A stretch of 64,000 bases of DNA from IMG/VR virus record IMGVR_UViG_3300028844_004552, positions 1-64,000 of that record. One strand, given 5' to 3'. Positions 24,890-63,623 of this stretch are shown piece by piece. The notes under the pieces are model-generated. The model had not been told where the DNA came from, did no database searches, and was given only the letters and a program-made list of their open reading frames with translations. The DNA is from a virus. The position numbers and the translations under genes are program-made. The number at the start of each line of letters is the position of its first letter. The first letter of the stretch is position 1.

Positions 24890-26592
24890 TGGGGTATTTT
24901 TTTCCACATAATAAAGATGGTAGTGGTCATGATGGACCAATTGGTTGTCAAACTAGTGATGCTGTGGTAGATACTGGTGGAATTGTAAATGAGAATTCTG
25001 ACGGGTCTGTATCAGTATATAATAATGATGGTAGTTACAGACCATTGACTAAAGAGTGTTGTGAGACACTTAATCCATCGTATACGTTTGATTTTAACGA
25101 ACAACAATGTAGATGGGGTGCTGGTTGTGATGAAGATAATAAACCATATCAATTAGTATTAAATCCAAATGGTAATGCTGGGGTTATCTTTGATGTTGAC
25201 GGTGATAATGGTGAGGACTGTATATTAAATGTTAAATTTGATTATTTATTTAATCTTGATTGTGATATTATATATGATGCACTACAAGCAAATCAATTAT
25301 TTACCTTAGATGGTGATACTCAAGCATTGGTTTTCCAATTAAGTGGTAGATGTGAAGAAATATCTACATTGGTAAGTACACTTGAGGTTAATCTTATTTC
25401 GTTGACTACTGAATTGAGTAATACACCATATGTTATTCAGTGTAGTGAAATTATAAAAGACCCAGAACATGAAGTTCATGAAACACAAAAAACTGTTGGT
25501 GGATTCAATTCATTATTACCACCTAACGCATTCCCAATAAGTGAATATGGAATAGTGACATATTGTTTAACACCTAGTGGTTTAACTGCTTGGAATACAA
25601 TTTTAGGGACTGTAAATTATGACACTTGGTTTGCATCAGAGGGTGTGAACACTTCACTATATACATGTGTTGATGTTGATACACTTCTTGATTTAGATAA
25701 TGGAAGTGGTGACCTTATAGGTACTTGTGATGTTAGTGTTACGACTAGACAAGAAATAATAACTCAAATAACTGAAACTCAAGAAGAGATAATAACACTT
25801 ACAAATGAATGTGATGAAATTCAGATTCAAATAGCAACCTTAATTGGTGATACTAATTGTAATACATTCTTAGAAATGTTGGAAACTCTTAATGTTTCTA
25901 TGACATTAGAGGTTATTGATTATCCATCACCAGCTAACACACCAGTATCAACAACGGTTTATGAAGAAACAATATTTAATATTGGTGAAGATAATCTCTT
26001 AGATTATTTATTATCTGCTAATGGTAAAACTGGATTTTATATTAGTGGTTCAGAAACTAACAACATATGTGAGGTTATTGAAGGTGGGTTGGTTGATGAC
26101 ATAAATGCAACTGGAGACTTAACTGGTATTTTTGAAACTAATTCTGAATTGGTAGACTTAGTAAATACATCATTTAATTCAGAATGGCTTGGGGCAGACA
26201 TTAACATAACTGACCCAGCAATTATTTCTGGAATTACGAATCAAGAGATTAAGATATCACTTAAGATTAACGATTGTTGTTTTGATTTAGGTATCCTAAT
26301 CGATAGAATCGAAATGAATAAGGAATGTAGTAACACTGAAAGTACTACCATTAGAATTAACAAGTGTCCAAGTTTTGACTTGGTAAGGGTTTGTGACAAT
26401 AAGAAATCATGGCTTACTAATGAAGACGCTGAGAAAAGAGAGTTCGACCTTAAATTAAGGGGTACTGGATATAATATTAAGGATTATAGACTTGCAATAA
26501 ATAGTAAAGAAGTTGATTTAGATATCAACCCAGCCAATGCAATAGAACAAGATTTATATTGTTATGTTACTTCCAAAGTGGGTGTACTGTAG
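24889..26592 (+). CDS. Putative virion protein, upstream part of a frame-disrupted gene
   Basis: 567 aa before a TAG at 26590-26592. It is Cys-rich and beta-rich, with a coiled-coil-like stretch around residues 285-320 (REIITQITETQEEIITL-type heptads). The reading frame continues in -1 immediately: the codons overlapping the end (26559-26921) encode 120 more residues of similar composition, and the spacing to the next gene is then normal. So the intact product is probably about 677 aa. The split may be a one-base deletion, a sequencing error or recoding. Confidence 0.65.
   Translation: MGYFFPHNKDGSGHDGPIGCQTSDAVVDTGGIVNENSDGSVSVYNNDGSYRPLTKECCETLNPSYTFDFNEQQCRWGAGCDEDNKPYQLVLNPNGNAGVIFDVDGDNGEDCILNVKFDYLFNLDCDIIYDALQANQLFTLDGDTQALVFQLSGRCEEISTLVSTLEVNLISLTTELSNTPYVIQCSEIIKDPEHEVHETQKTVGGFNSLLPPNAFPISEYGIVTYCLTPSGLTAWNTILGTVNYDTWFASEGVNTSLYTCVDVDTLLDLDNGSGDLIGTCDVSVTTRQEIITQITETQEEIITLTNECDEIQIQIATLIGDTNCNTFLEMLETLNVSMTLEVIDYPSPANTPVSTTVYEETIFNIGEDNLLDYLLSANGKTGFYISGSETNNICEVIEGGLVDDINATGDLTGIFETNSELVDLVNTSFNSEWLGADINITDPAIISGITNQEIKISLKINDCCFDLGILIDRIEMNKECSNTESTTIRINKCPSFDLVRVCDNKKSWLTNEDAEKREFDLKLRGTGYNIKDYRLAINSKEVDLDINPANAIEQDLYCYVTSKVGVL
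26514..26592 (+). other. Window for the -1 frame change
   Basis: The -1 frame is closed by TGA at 26514-26516 and frame 0 by TAG at 26590-26592, so a shift must lie between them. One extra A in the AAA run near 26575-26577 would restore a continuous frame. I see no canonical X-XXY-YYZ slippery heptamer in frame here. Confidence 0.6.
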
Positions 26593-26921
26593 ATACTATT
26601 TGGGGTATAGATGTTAGTTTGGGATGTGAGACTATTTATAGTAACGATTCATTCTATGTTAGTACTGGAATCACAGATACACCAACACAACAAGAGTATC
26701 TTATTGAGTTGAGTGGGATTGCTGCAACATTAGGGTTAGAATTTACAAGTGGTGCTACTGAGGTTATATTTACTGACGTGGTAGATTGTGAGGGTGTTAA
26801 TTATTTAAATGAAACATTTAAGGTTGATTTAACATTGGATATCACAACTCTTTGTATTAAGAACTTCCAAGATGGTGAAGATTTCTTATTCCAAGATGAT
26901 ACACCATATGAATTTAATTAA
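26559..26921 (+). CDS. Downstream part of the frame-disrupted virion gene
   Basis: This -1-frame continuation of the gene at 24889 has no good start codon of its own (only a TTG at 26559). It encodes a beta-rich C-terminus (for example DTIWGIDVSLGCETIY) ending in DDTPYEFN. The residue style and codon use match the upstream part. It is best read as the C-terminal domain of one protein. Confidence 0.55.
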   Translation: MLCYFQSGCTVDTIWGIDVSLGCETIYSNDSFYVSTGITDTPTQQEYLIELSGIAATLGLEFTSGATEVIFTDVVDCEGVNYLNETFKVDLTLDITTLCIKNFQDGEDFLFQDDTPYEFN

Positions 26922-26949
26922 AATAAAAAAATAGAAAAATAGAAATAAA

Positions 26950-42933: not shown

Positions 42934-42976
42934 TGTGTTTATAGAACACATAAGATTAGAGTATAAAAAATGTTTA

Positions 42977-43753
42977 ATGAGTAAAAATTTTGTAAGTAAC
43001 TATGGAGAAGATTGCATAGGAAAGTATTTTAATGACGTAAGAAATTCATCAGAGCTATTAACCGCAGAACAAGAGGTAGCAATAGCGAATAGAATTAAAG
43101 CTGGTGACAGCAAAGCGATTGACGAATTAGTTAAAGCTAACCTTAAATTCGTAATATCAATAGCTAAAGAATATCAAAATCAAGGATTGGGTTTAAATGA
43201 CCTAATCAACGAAGGTAACTACGGTTTAATCAAAGCCGCTGTCAGATTTGACGCAACTAGAGGTTTTAGATTTATATCATATGCCGTATGGTGGATTAAA
43301 CAATCAATTATTCAAAGTCTTAATGACAATGCTAGAATGATTAGACTTCCAGAGAGAGAAGCGTATATTGGAGAAGTTTTAAATAGTGACGACGAAGAGG
43401 AAGACCTTGAAGTAATATCTACACCAACTGTTAATTCGTTGAACGCAAAAATCAACGAAGAAGGTAGTGAATTGTATGAAATGATTGAAGACACATCAAA
43501 TGAGGAATCGGATTATTACATAGATGCTAAAGTAAAAGAGGAATTAGATAGAATCCTTAGTATATTAAACGAAAGGGAACGAAATATAATTCAATGTTAC
43601 TTCGGTGTGAATACTGAAACTGAATCAATGACACTTGAGGATATTGGTGATAAATACAGTTTAACCAAAGAAAGAATCAGACAAATCAAGGAGAAAACAA
43701 TCAGAAAGATTAGGCATCACTCTAGCTTCTTATTTGAGTTATTAAAGGACTAA
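42977..43753 (+). CDS. RNA polymerase sigma-70 factor lacking domain 3
   Basis: 258 aa from the ATG at 42977 (an upstream GTG at 42935 falls in the promoter and is rejected). Region 1.2/2 is nearly identical in style to the Bacteroidota primary sigma: NLKFVISIAKEYQNQGL, LINEGNYGLIKAA, FRFISYAVWWIKQSI and an RLP motif. Region 4 is intact (MTLEDIGDKYSLTKERIRQIKEKTIRKIRH). The domain 3 helix-turn-helix between them is replaced by a short acidic linker (DDEEEDLE). It lies near gp46/gp47 as T4 gene 55 does, so it may direct host RNA polymerase to phage late promoters. Confidence 0.85.
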   Translation: MSKNFVSNYGEDCIGKYFNDVRNSSELLTAEQEVAIANRIKAGDSKAIDELVKANLKFVISIAKEYQNQGLGLNDLINEGNYGLIKAAVRFDATRGFRFISYAVWWIKQSIIQSLNDNARMIRLPEREAYIGEVLNSDDEEEDLEVISTPTVNSLNAKINEEGSELYEMIEDTSNEESDYYIDAKVKEELDRILSILNERERNIIQCYFGVNTETESMTLEDIGDKYSLTKERIRQIKEKTIRKIRHHSSFLFELLKD

Positions 43754-51639: not shown

Positions 51640-51657
51640 TAAAATAATATAAATAAT

Positions 51658-51687
51658 AAAAGCTCCTAGAAATAGGGGCTTTTTTTA
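51658..51687. terminator. Terminator with GAAA tetraloop, convergent genes
   Basis: AGCTCCTA pairs with TAGGGGCT (one wobble) around GAAA, with A residues before and T residues after. It can serve both the plus-strand gene ending at 51639 and the minus-strand gene ending at 51685. Confidence 0.82.
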
Positions 51688-52113
51688 TGCTCTTAAAATT
51701 ACATAATCATTTTCAGTCAATGCTGTGGACCCCAAAGAAGAGATTTTATCTAAAACCATATCTTTATCAATATTATTAAGTGTAAATACATCAATAATAT
51801 CATCGAAGTCGTCCATACCATTAAATGTTGATTTGAATTCTGCAACTTTATTACTATTGATGATGTTAACCATCTCATTAGTGAAGTCCACTTTAGAATG
51901 ACAACTCATATTTCGCTCCAATAACAATCCAATAAAGGTATTTACTTGGTATGTATTCATAAACAAGAATAAGTTCTCGTAATTACCACAATCAGTTTCT
52001 TTAACTAATATACAATCAAAGATATCAAATCCATGTACATCATTAAAAGCTTCGTTAATTTCGAATACCCATCCTTTACCGTCAACCTTGTCAATTTTGA
52101 TAATTGTAACCAT
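51685..52113 (-). CDS. Hypothetical protein, 142 aa
   Basis: Unknown family, on the minus strand between two plus-strand virion-type genes. It is acidic, with no membrane segment; the start reads MVTIIKIDKVDGKGWVFEINE. It has its own promoter element upstream and shares the terminator below it. Isolated reversed genes like this are often later acquisitions, but nothing in the sequence proves it. Confidence 0.65.
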   Translation of the reverse strand: MVTIIKIDKVDGKGWVFEINEAFNDVHGFDIFDCILVKETDCGNYENLFLFMNTYQVNTFIGLLLERNMSCHSKVDFTNEMVNIINSNKVAEFKSTFNGMDDFDDIIDVFTLNNIDKDMVLDKISSLGSTALTENDYVILRA

Positions 52114-52129
52114 ATCTCTTTATTTTCTA

Positions 52130-52137
52130 TAAATATA
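52130..52137 (-). promoter_or_regulatory. Promoter -7-like element TATATTTA
   Basis: Read on the minus strand, 16 bases before the start of the gene ending at 52113. No clear -33 TTG. Confidence 0.45.
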
Positions 52138-52179
52138 CGGATAATATATCAATAAACCTAATTTTTAGTAAAAAAAATG

Positions 52180-52187
52180 TATTTATA
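52180..52187 (+). promoter_or_regulatory. Late-type promoter motif TATTTATA
   Basis: 32 bases before the amidase ATG at 52220. Confidence 0.45.
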
Positions 52188-52219
52188 GTTAACTAAGTTA
52201 TAAAAAAACAACAATAAAT

Positions 52220-56145: not shown

Positions 56146-56436
56146 ATGAAGATGTCTAAATCCAAACACAGAAATACACATTGCAAAGAAGCTGGTAAAT
56201 ATACTTACCCTAGTGAAGCCGCAGCATCTCGTACTTTAAATAAGTATGAAGACATTAAACGCACCTATCTATGTAAGGGTTGTGGTGGTTGGCATATAAC
56301 TAGCATGACTATGCGTACAGCAGTAAAGTATGGTATTGTTAATAAACTACCAAAGAAAAGTAAAAAGGGTTATCCCACATCAAAAATACAAAATAGACTT
56401 GATTTTTTAAATAAAAAAATAAATAAAGATGCTTAA
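56146..56436 (+). CDS. Zinc-ribbon protein, 96 aa
   Basis: Start taken at the ATG at 56146 because the promoter -7 box ends at 56140. The sequence has a K-H-R...C motif near the N-terminus and YLCKGCGGWHITS (about residues 40-52), the C-x2-C-x-x-W-H form of small phage zinc-ribbon proteins. The C-terminus is basic. Probably DNA- or RNA-binding. It overlaps the RNase HII gene by 8 bases. Confidence 0.68.
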   Translation: MKMSKSKHRNTHCKEAGKYTYPSEAAASRTLNKYEDIKRTYLCKGCGGWHITSMTMRTAVKYGIVNKLPKKSKKGYPTSKIQNRLDFLNKKINKDA

Positions 56437-57058
56437 GAATTACGCAAGAGAACATAACCTAAAACAAGTAGCTGGTTTAGATGAGGTTGGTAGAGGTTCA
56501 TTCGCTGGACCAGTTGTAACTGCCGCAGTGATACTACCACCAGACTTCGAATCAGAACTAATAGTCGATTCAAAGCTCATCTGCAAGTCAAGACCGAAGA
56601 TGCAAAAGGCTTACGACCTAATCATGGAGAATGCAATAGCTGTTCATTGTGACGCACAATCAGCAAAGGTAATAAACGAGTTAGGTATCAATGATGCAAT
56701 TTGGAAATCGATGCATACATGTATAGACAACTTACCACACGTTGAGAAATTATTGATTGATGGTCGTGAATGGGTTGAACACCCAAGAATTGGTGATATA
56801 CCATATGAAACAGTAGTTAAGGGTGATAATACATATTTATCAATAGCGGCAGCTGCAATTGTAGCTAAGTACCGTAGAGATGAATACATGACGAAAGTAC
56901 ATGAATTACATCCACATTATAACTTTAGTGGTAGCAAGGGTTATTACTGTAAGAAACATGGTGAGGGGCTACTAGAATATGGGAAGACACGTTATCATCG
57001 AGACCAATATGTTGAGACGTGGTGTAAAAATAAAGGACATTTATTACCAAATAATTAG
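56429..57058 (+). CDS. rnhB: Ribonuclease HII
   Basis: 209 aa, typical of RNase HII. It removes single ribonucleotides and RNA primers from DNA. Catalytic motifs are present: GLDEVGRG with D18/E19, LLIDGREW with the central Asp and KGDNTYLSIAAAAIVAKYRRD with the C-terminal Asp. It is unusual for a T4-like phage to carry both this and the Rnh exonuclease at 5220. It overlaps the zinc-ribbon gene, so the two may cooperate. Confidence 0.9.
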   Translation: MLKNYAREHNLKQVAGLDEVGRGSFAGPVVTAAVILPPDFESELIVDSKLICKSRPKMQKAYDLIMENAIAVHCDAQSAKVINELGINDAIWKSMHTCIDNLPHVEKLLIDGREWVEHPRIGDIPYETVVKGDNTYLSIAAAAIVAKYRRDEYMTKVHELHPHYNFSGSKGYYCKKHGEGLLEYGKTRYHRDQYVETWCKNKGHLLPNN

Positions 57059-58177: not shown

Positions 58178-58208
58178 TTGACAAGAGGATTTAAATGTAG
58201 TATATTTG
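58178..58208 (+). promoter_or_regulatory. Strong host-type promoter of the Ro60-like gene
   Basis: TTGACA at 58178-58183, a 17-base spacer and TATATTTG at 58201-58208. It leaves a leader of about 45 bases. It is the best match to the consensus in the window. Confidence 0.8.
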
Positions 58209-58256
58209 CAGTCGCTGAAATTAGATAACTAAGTTTAATTTTAAAAACCAAACACT

Positions 58257-59717
58257 ATGTCAAAATTGATTGATGCAATCAGAACTAACGATTCCCTTAC
58301 AGAAAATGGGATGACTACTAACTCAACATCATTAAATATGTGTGTAGACATGTTCTTCACCATAGGTGCTATGAGAGGTCAAGATAAGACTCGTCTTATA
58401 AACACATTCACGAAAGCTTACGCAGAAGATGCACTTACAGCAACAAAGTTGTTGTTCTGGGCTAGAGACGTACGTGGTGGTGCTGGAGAGAGACAAATCT
58501 TTAAGGATATCATTACTTACTTAGCAAGTTCTAAGCACAAGGAAGTTCTTAGAAAGAACTTATCACTTATCTCTGAATTCGGGAGATGGGATGACCTTCT
58601 AGTATTGGTTGGTACTCCATTGGAGACTGACGCATTAAATCTTATTGCTAATGCACTTAACGAAGGGAACGGACTTTGTGCTAAGTGGATGCCAAGACCT
58701 AACGGTGGAAACAGAGAAAATAAGAGATGGGCTTCTGCTCTTAGAAAGCATATGGACCTTACACCAAAGGCTTATAGAACATTGTTAGTTGAAAACACTA
58801 ACGTTGTTGAAACGCTTATGTGTTCAAAGGACTTCGGTTCTATCGAGTACGGTAAGATTCCATCAAAGGCTATGTCTGATTACATGAAAGCATTCGGTAA
58901 GAATGATTACGAAAGATTCACAATGTATCTTAATGCAGTTGACAATGGTGAGGAAAAAATTAACGCTGGTGCGGTATACCCATATGATATTGTTAAGAAC
59001 ATGAGAAACGGTTCTAAGAATGGTGCTGACACACAATGGAATGCGTTACCTAACTACATGGAAGGTAGCAACGAGAGAATATTACCTCTAGTTGATGTAT
59101 CTGGTTCAATGCAAACTCCAGCTGGTGGAAACTCCAATATATCATGTATGGATGTGGCAATCTCATTGGGATTATACATGTCAGAGAGAAATGTTGGACC
59201 ATTCAAGGATGCGTTCATTACATTCCACTCCAATCCAACATTGGAAGTGGTTAAGGGTACACTTTCTGAAAGATATACTCAAATGCATAGCTCTAAATGG
59301 GGTGGTTCTACTAACATAGAAGCCGCATTCGGATTGATGTTAAATAAGGCAATAGCAAACAACGTTTCTGCTGATGAAATGCCAACAATGATGATTATAT
59401 TGTCAGATATGGAATTTGACTCTGCAACAAGAGCGGGATGGGGTGAATCACACCCAAGATGGAATGCTTCGGCTCAATCTATGATTGAGGATAAGTATGC
59501 AGAAGCTGGGTACGTGATGCCTAAGATTGTATATTGGAACCTTCAATCTCGTGGAGATAAGAACAAGCCAGTTCAGTTCGATAAAAACGGAACAGCATTG
59601 GTGTCTGGATTCAGTCCAGCATTATTGACTAGTTTGTTGGCTGGTAAGGACATGACTCCTTACAGTATGATGATGAACGTAATTAGCTCTGCTCGTTACG
59701 AGGATATAACTATATAA
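58257..59717 (+). CDS. DUF2828/TROVE-like protein with vWA domain (Ro60-like)
   Basis: 486 aa. The N-terminal two thirds have the helical-repeat pattern of the DUF2828/TROVE group: LLFWARDVRGGAGERQIF near residue 70, ISEFGRWDDLL near 105. The C-terminal third is a von Willebrand A domain with a full MIDAS: DVSGS (about 279-283), GGSTN (Thr near 350) and LSDME (near 382). Ro60 proteins hold misfolded or structured RNA in a ring and act with small Y RNAs. It has the strongest promoter here and its own terminator, and an unexplained structured region follows. Function in the phage is inferred. Confidence 0.8.
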   Translation: MSKLIDAIRTNDSLTENGMTTNSTSLNMCVDMFFTIGAMRGQDKTRLINTFTKAYAEDALTATKLLFWARDVRGGAGERQIFKDIITYLASSKHKEVLRKNLSLISEFGRWDDLLVLVGTPLETDALNLIANALNEGNGLCAKWMPRPNGGNRENKRWASALRKHMDLTPKAYRTLLVENTNVVETLMCSKDFGSIEYGKIPSKAMSDYMKAFGKNDYERFTMYLNAVDNGEEKINAGAVYPYDIVKNMRNGSKNGADTQWNALPNYMEGSNERILPLVDVSGSMQTPAGGNSNISCMDVAISLGLYMSERNVGPFKDAFITFHSNPTLEVVKGTLSERYTQMHSSKWGGSTNIEAAFGLMLNKAIANNVSADEMPTMMIILSDMEFDSATRAGWGESHPRWNASAQSMIEDKYAEAGYVMPKIVYWNLQSRGDKNKPVQFDKNGTALVSGFSPALLTSLLAGKDMTPYSMMMNVISSARYEDITI

Positions 59718-59722
59718 TATTT

Positions 59723-59748
59723 GGGGTGGCTTCGGCTACCCCATTTGT
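59723..59748 (+). terminator. Hairpin after the Ro60-like gene
   Basis: GGGGTGGC pairs with GCTACCCC (one G-U) around a TTCG tetraloop. The following sequence is only moderately T-rich, so termination may be partial. Confidence 0.65.
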
Positions 59749-59756
59749 GTTTTGTG

Positions 59757-59965
59757 ATTTTAAGAATGATTACTGCAATCTTAAAACAAATATAAATAGC
59801 TACATAACAGAAAGAAATGGGTCAACTGTACGGGACCACATTTATTCGAAATTGATATCGATTTCAGCATACCAATTGTACGTTCTCTACTGGGTTAGAA
59901 CTAAATGCCCCCACATTCTGTATCACAAACTTAAATTAAGCCTCTTTATTGAGGCTTTTTTTATT
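59757..59965 (+). ncRNA. Candidate small structured RNA (possible Y-RNA analogue)
   Basis: This is part of the only gap above 300 bases (59718-60033) and carries no credible gene. It lies between the Ro60-like gene's hairpin and a strong terminator (59938-59964). Within it are a hairpin arm pair TTTTAAGA...TCTTAAAA (59757-59785), a 7-bp stem GAAATTG/CGATTTC with an ATAT loop near 59849, GGTC/GACC pairing near 59820-59836 and a T-loop-like TTCGAA. Bacterial Ro proteins act with Y RNAs encoded nearby. I found no convincing promoter, and the structure is only eye-read. Confidence 0.3.
59938..59964 (+). terminator. Strong Rho-independent terminator
   Basis: AAGCCTC pairs perfectly with GAGGCTT around TTTATT, followed by T residues. 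No protein gene precedes it within 200 bases, so it should end an RNA. Confidence 0.85.
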
Positions 59966-60033
59966 CCCTAAACCTTTACACTATAATAAAAATTACTTAG
60001 ATTTAACTATAATATAAAAATAATGAATTATAG

Positions 60034-60333
60034 ATGAAAATAGTAGTTAAACAAACGGATGAATTAAGGGGAACAACACCACCATTTAAAGATGAAAAGA
60101 TGGTTGAAGAGTTTATGGTTTATTTAATGGATGATACTGGTAGACCACTATCATGTGAAATTGTTTACGGTATAGCCGCTAAGAATGATATAGTTGGTAG
60201 GTTATTAATAGAATACTTCTTGCCAGATAATTGGGAAGAAAATAAGGAGCGGTTTGATGTCACAACAATTGTTGAAGAAGTATCATATGAAGATTACTTA
60301 GAACCAGCTGGAATTGCAAATACAAGAATATAA
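60034..60333 (+). CDS. Hypothetical protein, 99 aa
   Basis: Acidic protein of unknown family (MKIVVKQTDELRGTTPPFKDEKMVEEF). It ends in TAATG with the next gene and begins a four-gene overlapping run. No domain recognised. Confidence 0.62.
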   Translation: MKIVVKQTDELRGTTPPFKDEKMVEEFMVYLMDDTGRPLSCEIVYGIAAKNDIVGRLLIEYFLPDNWEENKERFDVTTIVEEVSYEDYLEPAGIANTRI

Positions 60334-62594: not shown

Positions 62595-63623
62595 ATGGCG
62601 AAAAGAGATTATTATGAAGTATTAGGTGTAAGTAAAACTGCATCAGAAAAGGAAATTAAAAAAGCTTATAGAACAATAGCTAAGGAGAATCATCCAGACG
62701 TTAAACCAGACGACAAAGCAGCTGAGGAAGTATTCAGAGAAGCCGCAGAAGCCTACGAAACCTTAAGTGATAAGGATAAGAAGAATAACTATGATAGATT
62801 CGGTCACCAAGGTGCTCAGAGAGTTAAGGGTAGGCAAGACATGGAAGATATGATGCGTGAGATGTTCGGCAACCAACGACAACAAGTTAGGAAGGGTGAA
62901 AGTCTTAGATTGAATCTTAAGATGTCACTTGAAGAAATGTTTAGTGGTGCTAAAAAAACATTAAAGTATGCTAAACAAGTTGTTTGTAAACCTTGTAATG
63001 GTAAGGGTGGTCATAACGTAAAAGGTTGTGGTGTCTGCAAGGGTTCTGGAATGATGTTTAGAAACATAAGGATGGGTAACCAAATGTTTCAAGAACAAAG
63101 TACATGTCAAAGCTGTAGAGGTACTGGTGAGATGATATCAGATATATGTAAGAACTGTAAGGGTGCTAAAACGATTAGTAAAACAAACACACTTGAAGTT
63201 GACATACCATCTGGAGTTATGGATGGAATGCAAATAATATCCGAAGGTGGTGGTCATGAAACACCTAATGGTCACAATGGTGATGTAATGGTTGTATTAA
63301 CACAATTATCTCACAACACATTTATTAGAAGTGGTAATGACTTGAAGGTTAATTTAAAATTAAGTTATACACAATTAGTATTAGGTGATAAGATTGAGAT
63401 TGAAACCATAGAGGGTGGTAAGATACGAGCAACTATTCCACCATATAGCAATGTTGATGATAATCTTAGAATTCCTAACAAGGGAATGAATATTTTACAT
63501 TCAAATGGACAGCGAGGTGATATGATAATAATTCTAAGTGTCTCAGTACCAACAGAAGTGAGTGATGAGGAAAAAGAATTGCTAGAAAAATTACAGGATA
63601 TCCAAAATAAGGTTGCACAGTAA
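62595..63623 (+). CDS. dnaJ: DnaJ co-chaperone
   Basis: 342 aa with all classical parts: J domain (about 4-68) with HPD at residues 33-35, a short Gly-poor linker, a four-motif CxxCxGxG zinc region (about 125-200; the last motif is CKNCKGAK) and C-terminal substrate-binding domains with VDIPSGVMDGM. It stimulates a DnaK ATPase, presumably the host's, to fold phage proteins or remodel replication complexes. Complete DnaJ is uncommon in T4-like phages. It lacks an obvious promoter and its expression may depend on the divergent minus-strand gene's region. Confidence 0.9.
   Translation: MAKRDYYEVLGVSKTASEKEIKKAYRTIAKENHPDVKPDDKAAEEVFREAAEAYETLSDKDKKNNYDRFGHQGAQRVKGRQDMEDMMREMFGNQRQQVRKGESLRLNLKMSLEEMFSGAKKTLKYAKQVVCKPCNGKGGHNVKGCGVCKGSGMMFRNIRMGNQMFQEQSTCQSCRGTGEMISDICKNCKGAKTISKTNTLEVDIPSGVMDGMQIISEGGGHETPNGHNGDVMVVLTQLSHNTFIRSGNDLKVNLKLSYTQLVLGDKIEIETIEGGKIRATIPPYSNVDDNLRIPNKGMNILHSNGQRGDMIIILSVSVPTEVSDEEKELLEKLQDIQNKVAQ

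Follow-up and report, generated by a model that had tools for sequence, protein, structure and literature searches.

A phage gene for a Ro60-like protein and the conserved, pseudoknotted RNA behind it, a candidate Y-like partner

Ro/Y particles are poorly understood beyond a few bacteria and animals, and the locus described here raises the question of whether viruses possess a particle of this type themselves. In a 64,000-nucleotide stretch of viral DNA (positions 1 to 64,000 of the IMG/VR record IMGVR_UViG_3300028844_004552, one strand; “the window”), an earlier note had described a gene with Ro60 architecture and, right behind it, a gene-free gap that might encode a Y-like RNA. Our analysis suggests that viruses do use their own Ro/Y-type RNA-protein particle. 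The locus is quite probably a phage Ro ribonucleoprotein, in which a Ro60-fold protein is served by a dedicated noncoding RNA that lies downstream in the same direction, carries a handle and an interchangeable body, and is produced by means of read-through and a terminator. The best reading of the window RNA itself is that of a Y-RNA-like candidate partner, whose interchangeable body is here pseudoknotted and not tRNA-like.

The Ro-like protein and its locus

The gene at 58257–59717 (plus strand) encodes a 486-aa protein of the DUF2828/DUF7788 family (PHROG 850), with a helical-repeat domain and a vWA domain with MIDAS. The protein matches the Pfam models DUF7788 (2e-49) and DUF2828 (7e-35) as well as PHROG 850, “RNA-binding protein” (E 5.5e-149), while the generic vWA models of Pfam match weakly, below cut-off. 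The MIDAS is complete, as had been proposed, with D280-x-S282-x-S284, T352 and D384 invariant in 28 relatives, and most of the RDVRGGAGER motif varies little or not at all when the protein is aligned with its phage and bacterial relatives. A sequence search of the PDB gave nothing significant and one weak match, to a TROVE protein. The AlphaFold2 model of the protein (pLDDT 82.8, pTM 0.80) found as its top PDB structure match the TROVE structure 9kop (E 1.8e-9, TM 0.57/0.60 over 509 columns); among the leading structure matches this was the only one to run full length, the remainder being confined to the vWA domain. The Ro60 architecture claimed for the gene is thus borne out by the predicted structure, in which the fold is Ro60-like over the full length of the protein. 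The TROVE profile (Pfam PF05731) does not match the window protein, which matches DUF2828/DUF7788 only, and gave no match in 13 genomes or records that carry this family; together with the match to 9kop, this makes the protein Ro60-like in fold and places it outside the TROVE family by profile.

Genes for proteins of this kind are already known in phages. The family occurs in 681 of 50,697 phage records (as PHROG 850), its mycobacteriophage members, which belong to the same protein family as the window gene, are annotated “Ro-like RNA binding protein,” and phage proteins of the family have been noted as ROT/TROVE or Ro60-related (PMC7824862, PMC7765460) and described as Ro-like (PMC12282133). 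In one close relative (L001), the Ro-like reading frame (688–2124) is interrupted in the contig by a stop codon, possibly due to a sequencing error.

In front of the gene lies a promoter-like site, TTGACA-17-TATATT (58178–58206, plus strand), that agrees with the consensus at 11 of 12 positions; it is a consensus match only, and it can also be read as a Bacteroidota-type TAnnTTTG site. It had been called the best promoter in the window, and it is indeed the best sigma-70-like match across the 2.4-kb region that was scored. The gene’s own hairpin was found 3′ of the stop codon (59722–59743, plus strand); it has a UUCG loop and a weak T tract, is a candidate mRNA terminator, attenuator or processing site, and is present at this position in many relatives and absent in several. 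The gene-free gap behind the gene measures 316 bp (59718–60033) and holds, at 59938–59957 (plus strand), the perfect intrinsic terminator that had been noticed, with a 7-bp stem and a T run. The gap is not, as had been stated, the only one above 300 bases: further stretches with no ATG-started ORF of at least 45 aa are found at 51640–52219 (580 bases) and 26593–26949 (357 bases). Other genes in the window encode RNase HII (56429–57058), a sigma-70-type factor (42935–43753) and a DnaJ with zinc-finger repeats (62595–63623).

A conserved structured RNA behind the gene

The region behind the gene is a conserved structured RNA, with its core at 59762–59921 on the plus strand. We compared 80 relatives from IMG/VR (57–74% protein identity), in which a conserved block, AAAGATGTATTCTGCAA, follows the gene and is separated by a variable middle from ACTTC..ACAGGGTTAGAAGTAAAnGCCCC..CATCTTG, with a terminator behind; the motif of the 5′ block was found in 76 of the 79 usable relatives, and most full-length relatives carry a terminator-like hairpin with a T run 3′ of the RNA. 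An alignment of 30 distinct group-1 sequences (A1) gave a three-helix model consisting of a closing helix of 7 bp (P1), a second helix of 4 bp (P2), and a pseudoknot in which the P2 loop pairs with the strand that follows P2. In this model 96.7% of the cells are paired and 11 of the 15 pairs show changes on both sides, a value that none of 500 shuffles equaled, and slid controls have only 40–51% paired.

In A1, P1 is paired in 97% of cells, with both-side changes in six of its seven pairs, and occurs as AAGATG/CATCTT, AGAATG/CATTCT (the window form), GGAATGC/GCATTCC, AAAATGC/GCATTTT and AAGGTG/CACTTT. P2 is likewise paired in 97% of cells, and the window itself carries a compensatory change in it, from CTTC/GAAG to GTTC/GAAC. 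The P2-loop pseudoknot is paired in 96% of cells; all four of its pairs covary, and its variants include GGGU/ACCC, GAGU/ACUC, AGGU/ACCU, AGAU/AUCU and GGGC/GCCC. Covariation in homologous phages, which the earlier note had named among the checks of its proposal, shows that the structure is conserved.

In the window, all on the plus strand, the 5′ strand of P1 (59763–59769) contains AGAAUG, which pairs with the CAUUCU of the 3′ strand near 59914–59919, and the latter is followed by a conserved G (59914–59920 in all). Just inside the closing helix is the signature UACUGCAA (59771–59778), a variant of the consensus (N)ACAGCAA that defines a wider class; its positions C12, G14, C15, A16 and A17 are invariant in A1. 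P2 (GTTC/GAAC) and its pseudoknot, in which the loop GGGU pairs with a downstream GCCC, occupy 59882–59912. In the middle of the RNA, a second pseudoknot domain (59820–59885) consists of the helix AAATGGGTC/GACCACATTT and of a possible pairing between its loop, TGTACGG, and the TTGTACG that immediately precedes P2. This second pseudoknot is of the H type, the strand before P2 pairing with the loop of the upstream helix, and its strands are replaced wholesale among relatives (GCCGCTT/AAGCGGC, TCCCGAA/TTCGGGA, TGTCCAT/ATGGACA, TCCGATT/AATCGGA). In the relatives, pairing is better between a sequence’s own strands than after strands are swapped (none of 5000 permutations did as well); the pairing is weaker in the window itself.

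A covariance model (R1) built from 22 relatives, with the window left out, recovers the window RNA at 59762–59921 with 73.2 bits (E 8.8e-11), the second-best match in the window having an E of 2.5. Folding of the RNA core as a single sequence is not significant (z −1.2); the gap as a whole scores z −4, largely on account of the two hairpins that flank the RNA. It is the homologues that give evidence of the RNA, far beyond chance, and not single-sequence folding.

The T-loop-like TTCGAA that had been pointed out in the gap does not belong to a tRNA-like fold: a T-arm was found in none of the 30 homologous RNAs, and neither ARAGORN nor Rfam detected a tRNA gene in the 64-kb window. At the gathering threshold, none of the 4227 models of Rfam release 15 matched the window or any of 20 relatives, and the sub-threshold matches in the window (E 10) lie within the gene or at the two hairpins and are put down to chance. 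We also considered the conserved motif as coding sequence, as a riboswitch and as a promoter, and the covariation and the linkage to the gene argue against these readings. An 81-aa ORF (59726–59971) overlaps the RNA; we do not take it for a gene, since it has no significant Pfam or PHROG family and the spacing of the conserved blocks varies by non-multiples of three.

Linkage to the Ro-like gene and a signature shared with other phages and bacteria

The RNA is linked to the gene. A pattern of 20 nt, drawn from the 3′ domain of the group-1 RNAs, matched 11 of the 2.9 million viral contigs scanned, and all 11 had the Ro-like gene directly upstream. A longer form of the RNA (~330 nt; group 2), scanned for with its own pattern, gave 34 matches, with the gene upstream in 28 and too little upstream sequence for a verdict in the other six, so that the RNA lies beside the gene in 39 of the 39 IMG/VR matches with enough upstream sequence. 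In part of group 2 an extra gene of ~366 nt comes between, and the RNA still follows the Ro-like gene. Three relatives (L033, L041, L042) have the protein and no RNA behind its gene, where an ordinary terminator hairpin is found instead; the RNA is either dispensable in some phages or located elsewhere. In group 2 (L043–L080) the UACAGCAA handle occurs twice, as GGTTCC..GGAACC and as GGATCG..CGATCC.

The ends of the RNA recur beside DUF2828 genes well outside these relatives. We define the class, for the purposes of this analysis, by a helix of ~7 bp, 0–2 nt, ACAGCAA (or the variant [AUG]C[ACU]GCAA), a variable body, the returning helix strand and a G. The window fits, with a slightly longer spacer (AAGAAUG-AUU-ACUGCAA ... 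CAUUCU-G), and the A-to-U variant in its signature is common in group 1. In unrelated phages the helix of this handle is 7–9 bp long. FelixO1 has four copies (AAGACC..GGTCTGG), as does Bacillus phage PJN02; Listeria phage P61 (in tandem), Mycobacterium phage Moostard and Staphylococcus phage S-CoN_Ph5 have three each, and Campylobacter phage CP30A has two. With a 7-bp helix required, 29 elements were found at 12 of 17 diverse phage loci, compared with an average of 2.9 ± 1.9 (sd) for 104 permuted motifs, the highest of which (9) were shifts of the same motif. Under this strict rule there was no clear copy nearby (within 3 kb) in phiAS5, CBB, Klebsiella phage fENko-Kae01 or KVP40.

The same holds in bacteria. 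At 80 loci in GTDB genomes, mostly of Clostridia and with proteins 36–45% identical, we found 204 elements in 68 loci, where permuted motifs gave 15.0 (sd 11.4); 194 of the 204 are on the strand of the gene, 186 of those upstream of it, and a locus may have up to eight. Their density is 3.14 per 10 kb near the gene (80 loci) versus 0.17 in far stretches of two such genomes. The 198 distinct elements use 121 different helix sequences, and in 163 of the elements a G follows the 3′ strand. A T-arm with a UUCRANN loop is enclosed by 20 of 177 bacterial and 5 of 26 phage elements (permuted loops gave 0–5 and 0–1, respectively); its presence in 25 of 203 elements and in few controls is what would be expected of Y-like tRNA mimics. 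A similar motif is found in Citrobacter phage Ci1, phiAS5 and KVP40, in a ~45-nt insert within the anticodon arm of tRNA-like genes. These genes of the Straboviridae are 113–121 nt long (L091, 4891–5005 and 5012–5125; L100, 6760–6877 and 7028–7145; L094, 1406–1526 and 1537–1649, minus strand), several have a UNCNGCA motif in the insert, and in at least one of them removal of the insert would restore a normal anticodon loop.

At the Rfam gathering threshold, the class loci that were scanned matched tRNA models only. We found no description of the class in the openly readable literature, nor of any partner RNA family or signature for PHROG 850 proteins; an earlier description may exist in the subscription literature, which includes the main papers and reviews on bacterial Y RNAs. 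The class and its pseudoknotted form appear to be new. It seems likely that the DUF2828/DUF7788 Ro-like proteins of phages and Clostridia have a large, unrecognized class of partner RNAs that have the handle alone in common and whose bodies can be exchanged (mimics of tRNA, inserts carried in the anticodon arms of tRNAs, short hairpins or, in the case of the window, double pseudoknots), forming a modular platform which phages re-equip for RNA handling in infection. Such a class would show a single binding handle combined with very different RNA bodies, and phage biology would gain a widespread particle of RNA and protein whose cargo mimics tRNA or is pseudoknotted; with a simple signature that locates the partner RNAs beside a protein of hundreds of phages and many gut bacteria, the system would become directly testable.

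Readings of the locus and a possible mode of action

We regard it as highly probable that the RNA is the partner of the adjacent Ro-like protein. The alternative that survives best, which we nevertheless consider unlikely, is that the element is a cis-acting 3′-UTR structure of the Ro-like mRNA, by which the protein regulates or stabilizes its own message with no free RNA being made. It is in keeping with this that the RNA of several group-1 members (L018, L028, L029, L031, L032) starts within ~30 nt of the stop codon, so that co-transcription is probable, and that KVP40 carries UUUACAGCAA in the 5′ leader of the gene. A cis element sits less well, however, with the arrays of up to eight copies in other phages and Clostridia, mostly upstream of the gene and some with tRNA-like bodies, and with the gene that intervenes between Ro-like gene and RNA in some relatives; moreover, in most group-1 members the RNA is set off from the gene by a hairpin and followed by a terminator, and two covarying pseudoknots exceed the needs of a simple operator.

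Less probable still is that a structured RNA simply travels along with the gene and serves a separate purpose, such as that of an sRNA against host transcripts or of an RNA decoy for a defense system. The body does differ wholly between lineages, and Listeria phage cka15 has, close to its Ro-like gene, an abundant noncoding RNA that lacks the signature (PMC12282133); yet the closing helix and ACAGCAA are common to RNAs with unrelated bodies, and the sole common neighbor that we found is the Ro-like protein. Within the 2 kb upstream of its Ro-like gene, cka15 has three noncoding regions whose transcription ranks among the highest in the genome, and the authors of that study suggest that these abundant transcripts could be Y RNAs (PMC12282133). 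The most abundant noncoding region (26,236–26,727), the only one for which they state coordinates, is the source of most phage transcripts late in infection (PMC12282133); the signature array, at 25,116–25,640, adjoins this region and does not coincide with it, and we therefore do not take these RNA-seq data as proof of expression. A large gene-free region without ACAGCAA in Listeria phage P61 (L097, 3987–5058) is probably the counterpart of the abundant cka15 region.

The least credible reading is that of a riboswitch or attenuator, made up of a pseudoknot aptamer and a terminator, that acts on the next gene downstream (60034–60333), since this typical riboswitch layout of a pseudoknot and terminator ahead of a gene is interrupted by a further promoter-like site between terminator and gene (TTTACA-17-TAGATT, 59975–60003, with similar sequences in relatives), the linkage is to the upstream Ro gene (in Clostridia the element even lies upstream of that gene), and neither an anti-terminator nor an Rfam riboswitch match was seen.

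The partner-RNA reading invites comparison with the bacterial Rsr (Ro60/TROVE) proteins and their Y RNA/YrlA (Deinococcus radiodurans, Salmonella, Mycobacterium; RF02553). Both have a Ro60-fold protein beside a noncoding RNA whose ends are paired, the general feature of Y RNAs, which the window shows in the covariation of P1 and in the linkage. They differ in that the window protein is of the DUF2828/DUF7788 type, undetected by the TROVE profile, and in that the tRNA-like body of YrlA, which has its match in part of the wider class, is replaced in the window by a double pseudoknot with no tRNA-like part. A covariance search with bacterial Y RNA and tRNA-like models, as the earlier note had advised, found neither in the window: the YrlA model (RF02553) has no match there even at E 10, none at its gathering score in the relatives, and in the phage and bacterial records weak sub-cut-off matches only, of which the two phage ones inspected lie in tRNA genes. 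What stands of the proposed Ro/Y-like module is an adjacent, conserved and gene-linked structured RNA with a signature shared by many phages and bacteria; membership in YrlA does not. On whether the signature extends to Ro proteins in general, four Clostridial TROVE loci were searched; they held no (N)ACAGCAA array and one tRNA-like RNA. This element, just upstream of the TROVE gene of a Clostridia genome (L227, 3432–3499) and without ACAGCAA, may be a TROVE-branch Y RNA that the YrlA model misses.

Y RNAs bind Ro60 via a lower stem with a seven-base-pair helix, the length seen both at the vertebrate Ro60 site and in the handle of the class, and they gate the protein or tether others to it (PMC4726728). 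By this analogy, the closing helix with (N)ACAGCAA is most likely the handle that the protein would bind, and the body (two pseudoknots here, a tRNA-like domain elsewhere) would be the working part, blocking or gating the protein’s RNA channel and/or tethering a partner, for instance a ribonuclease or an enzyme of tRNA processing, in the manner of Y RNAs; the T-arms of some class members suggest tRNA mimicry. Such Y-like gating or tethering is the mode of action that we favor, with some reserve. The RNA would probably be made by read-through from the promoter of the Ro gene, or by a weak promoter of its own, be ended by the terminator at 59938–59957 and then be trimmed back to the closing helix. 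The particle could serve in the handling of phage or host RNA during infection and, as had been proposed for the module, may control RNA stability or decay. Ro-like genes are often located in phage tRNA clusters; in Listeria phage P61 the gene is near RtcB-type and other RNA ligases, and in Pectobacterium phage CBB and Klebsiella phage fENko-Kae01 it adjoins an RNA ligase.
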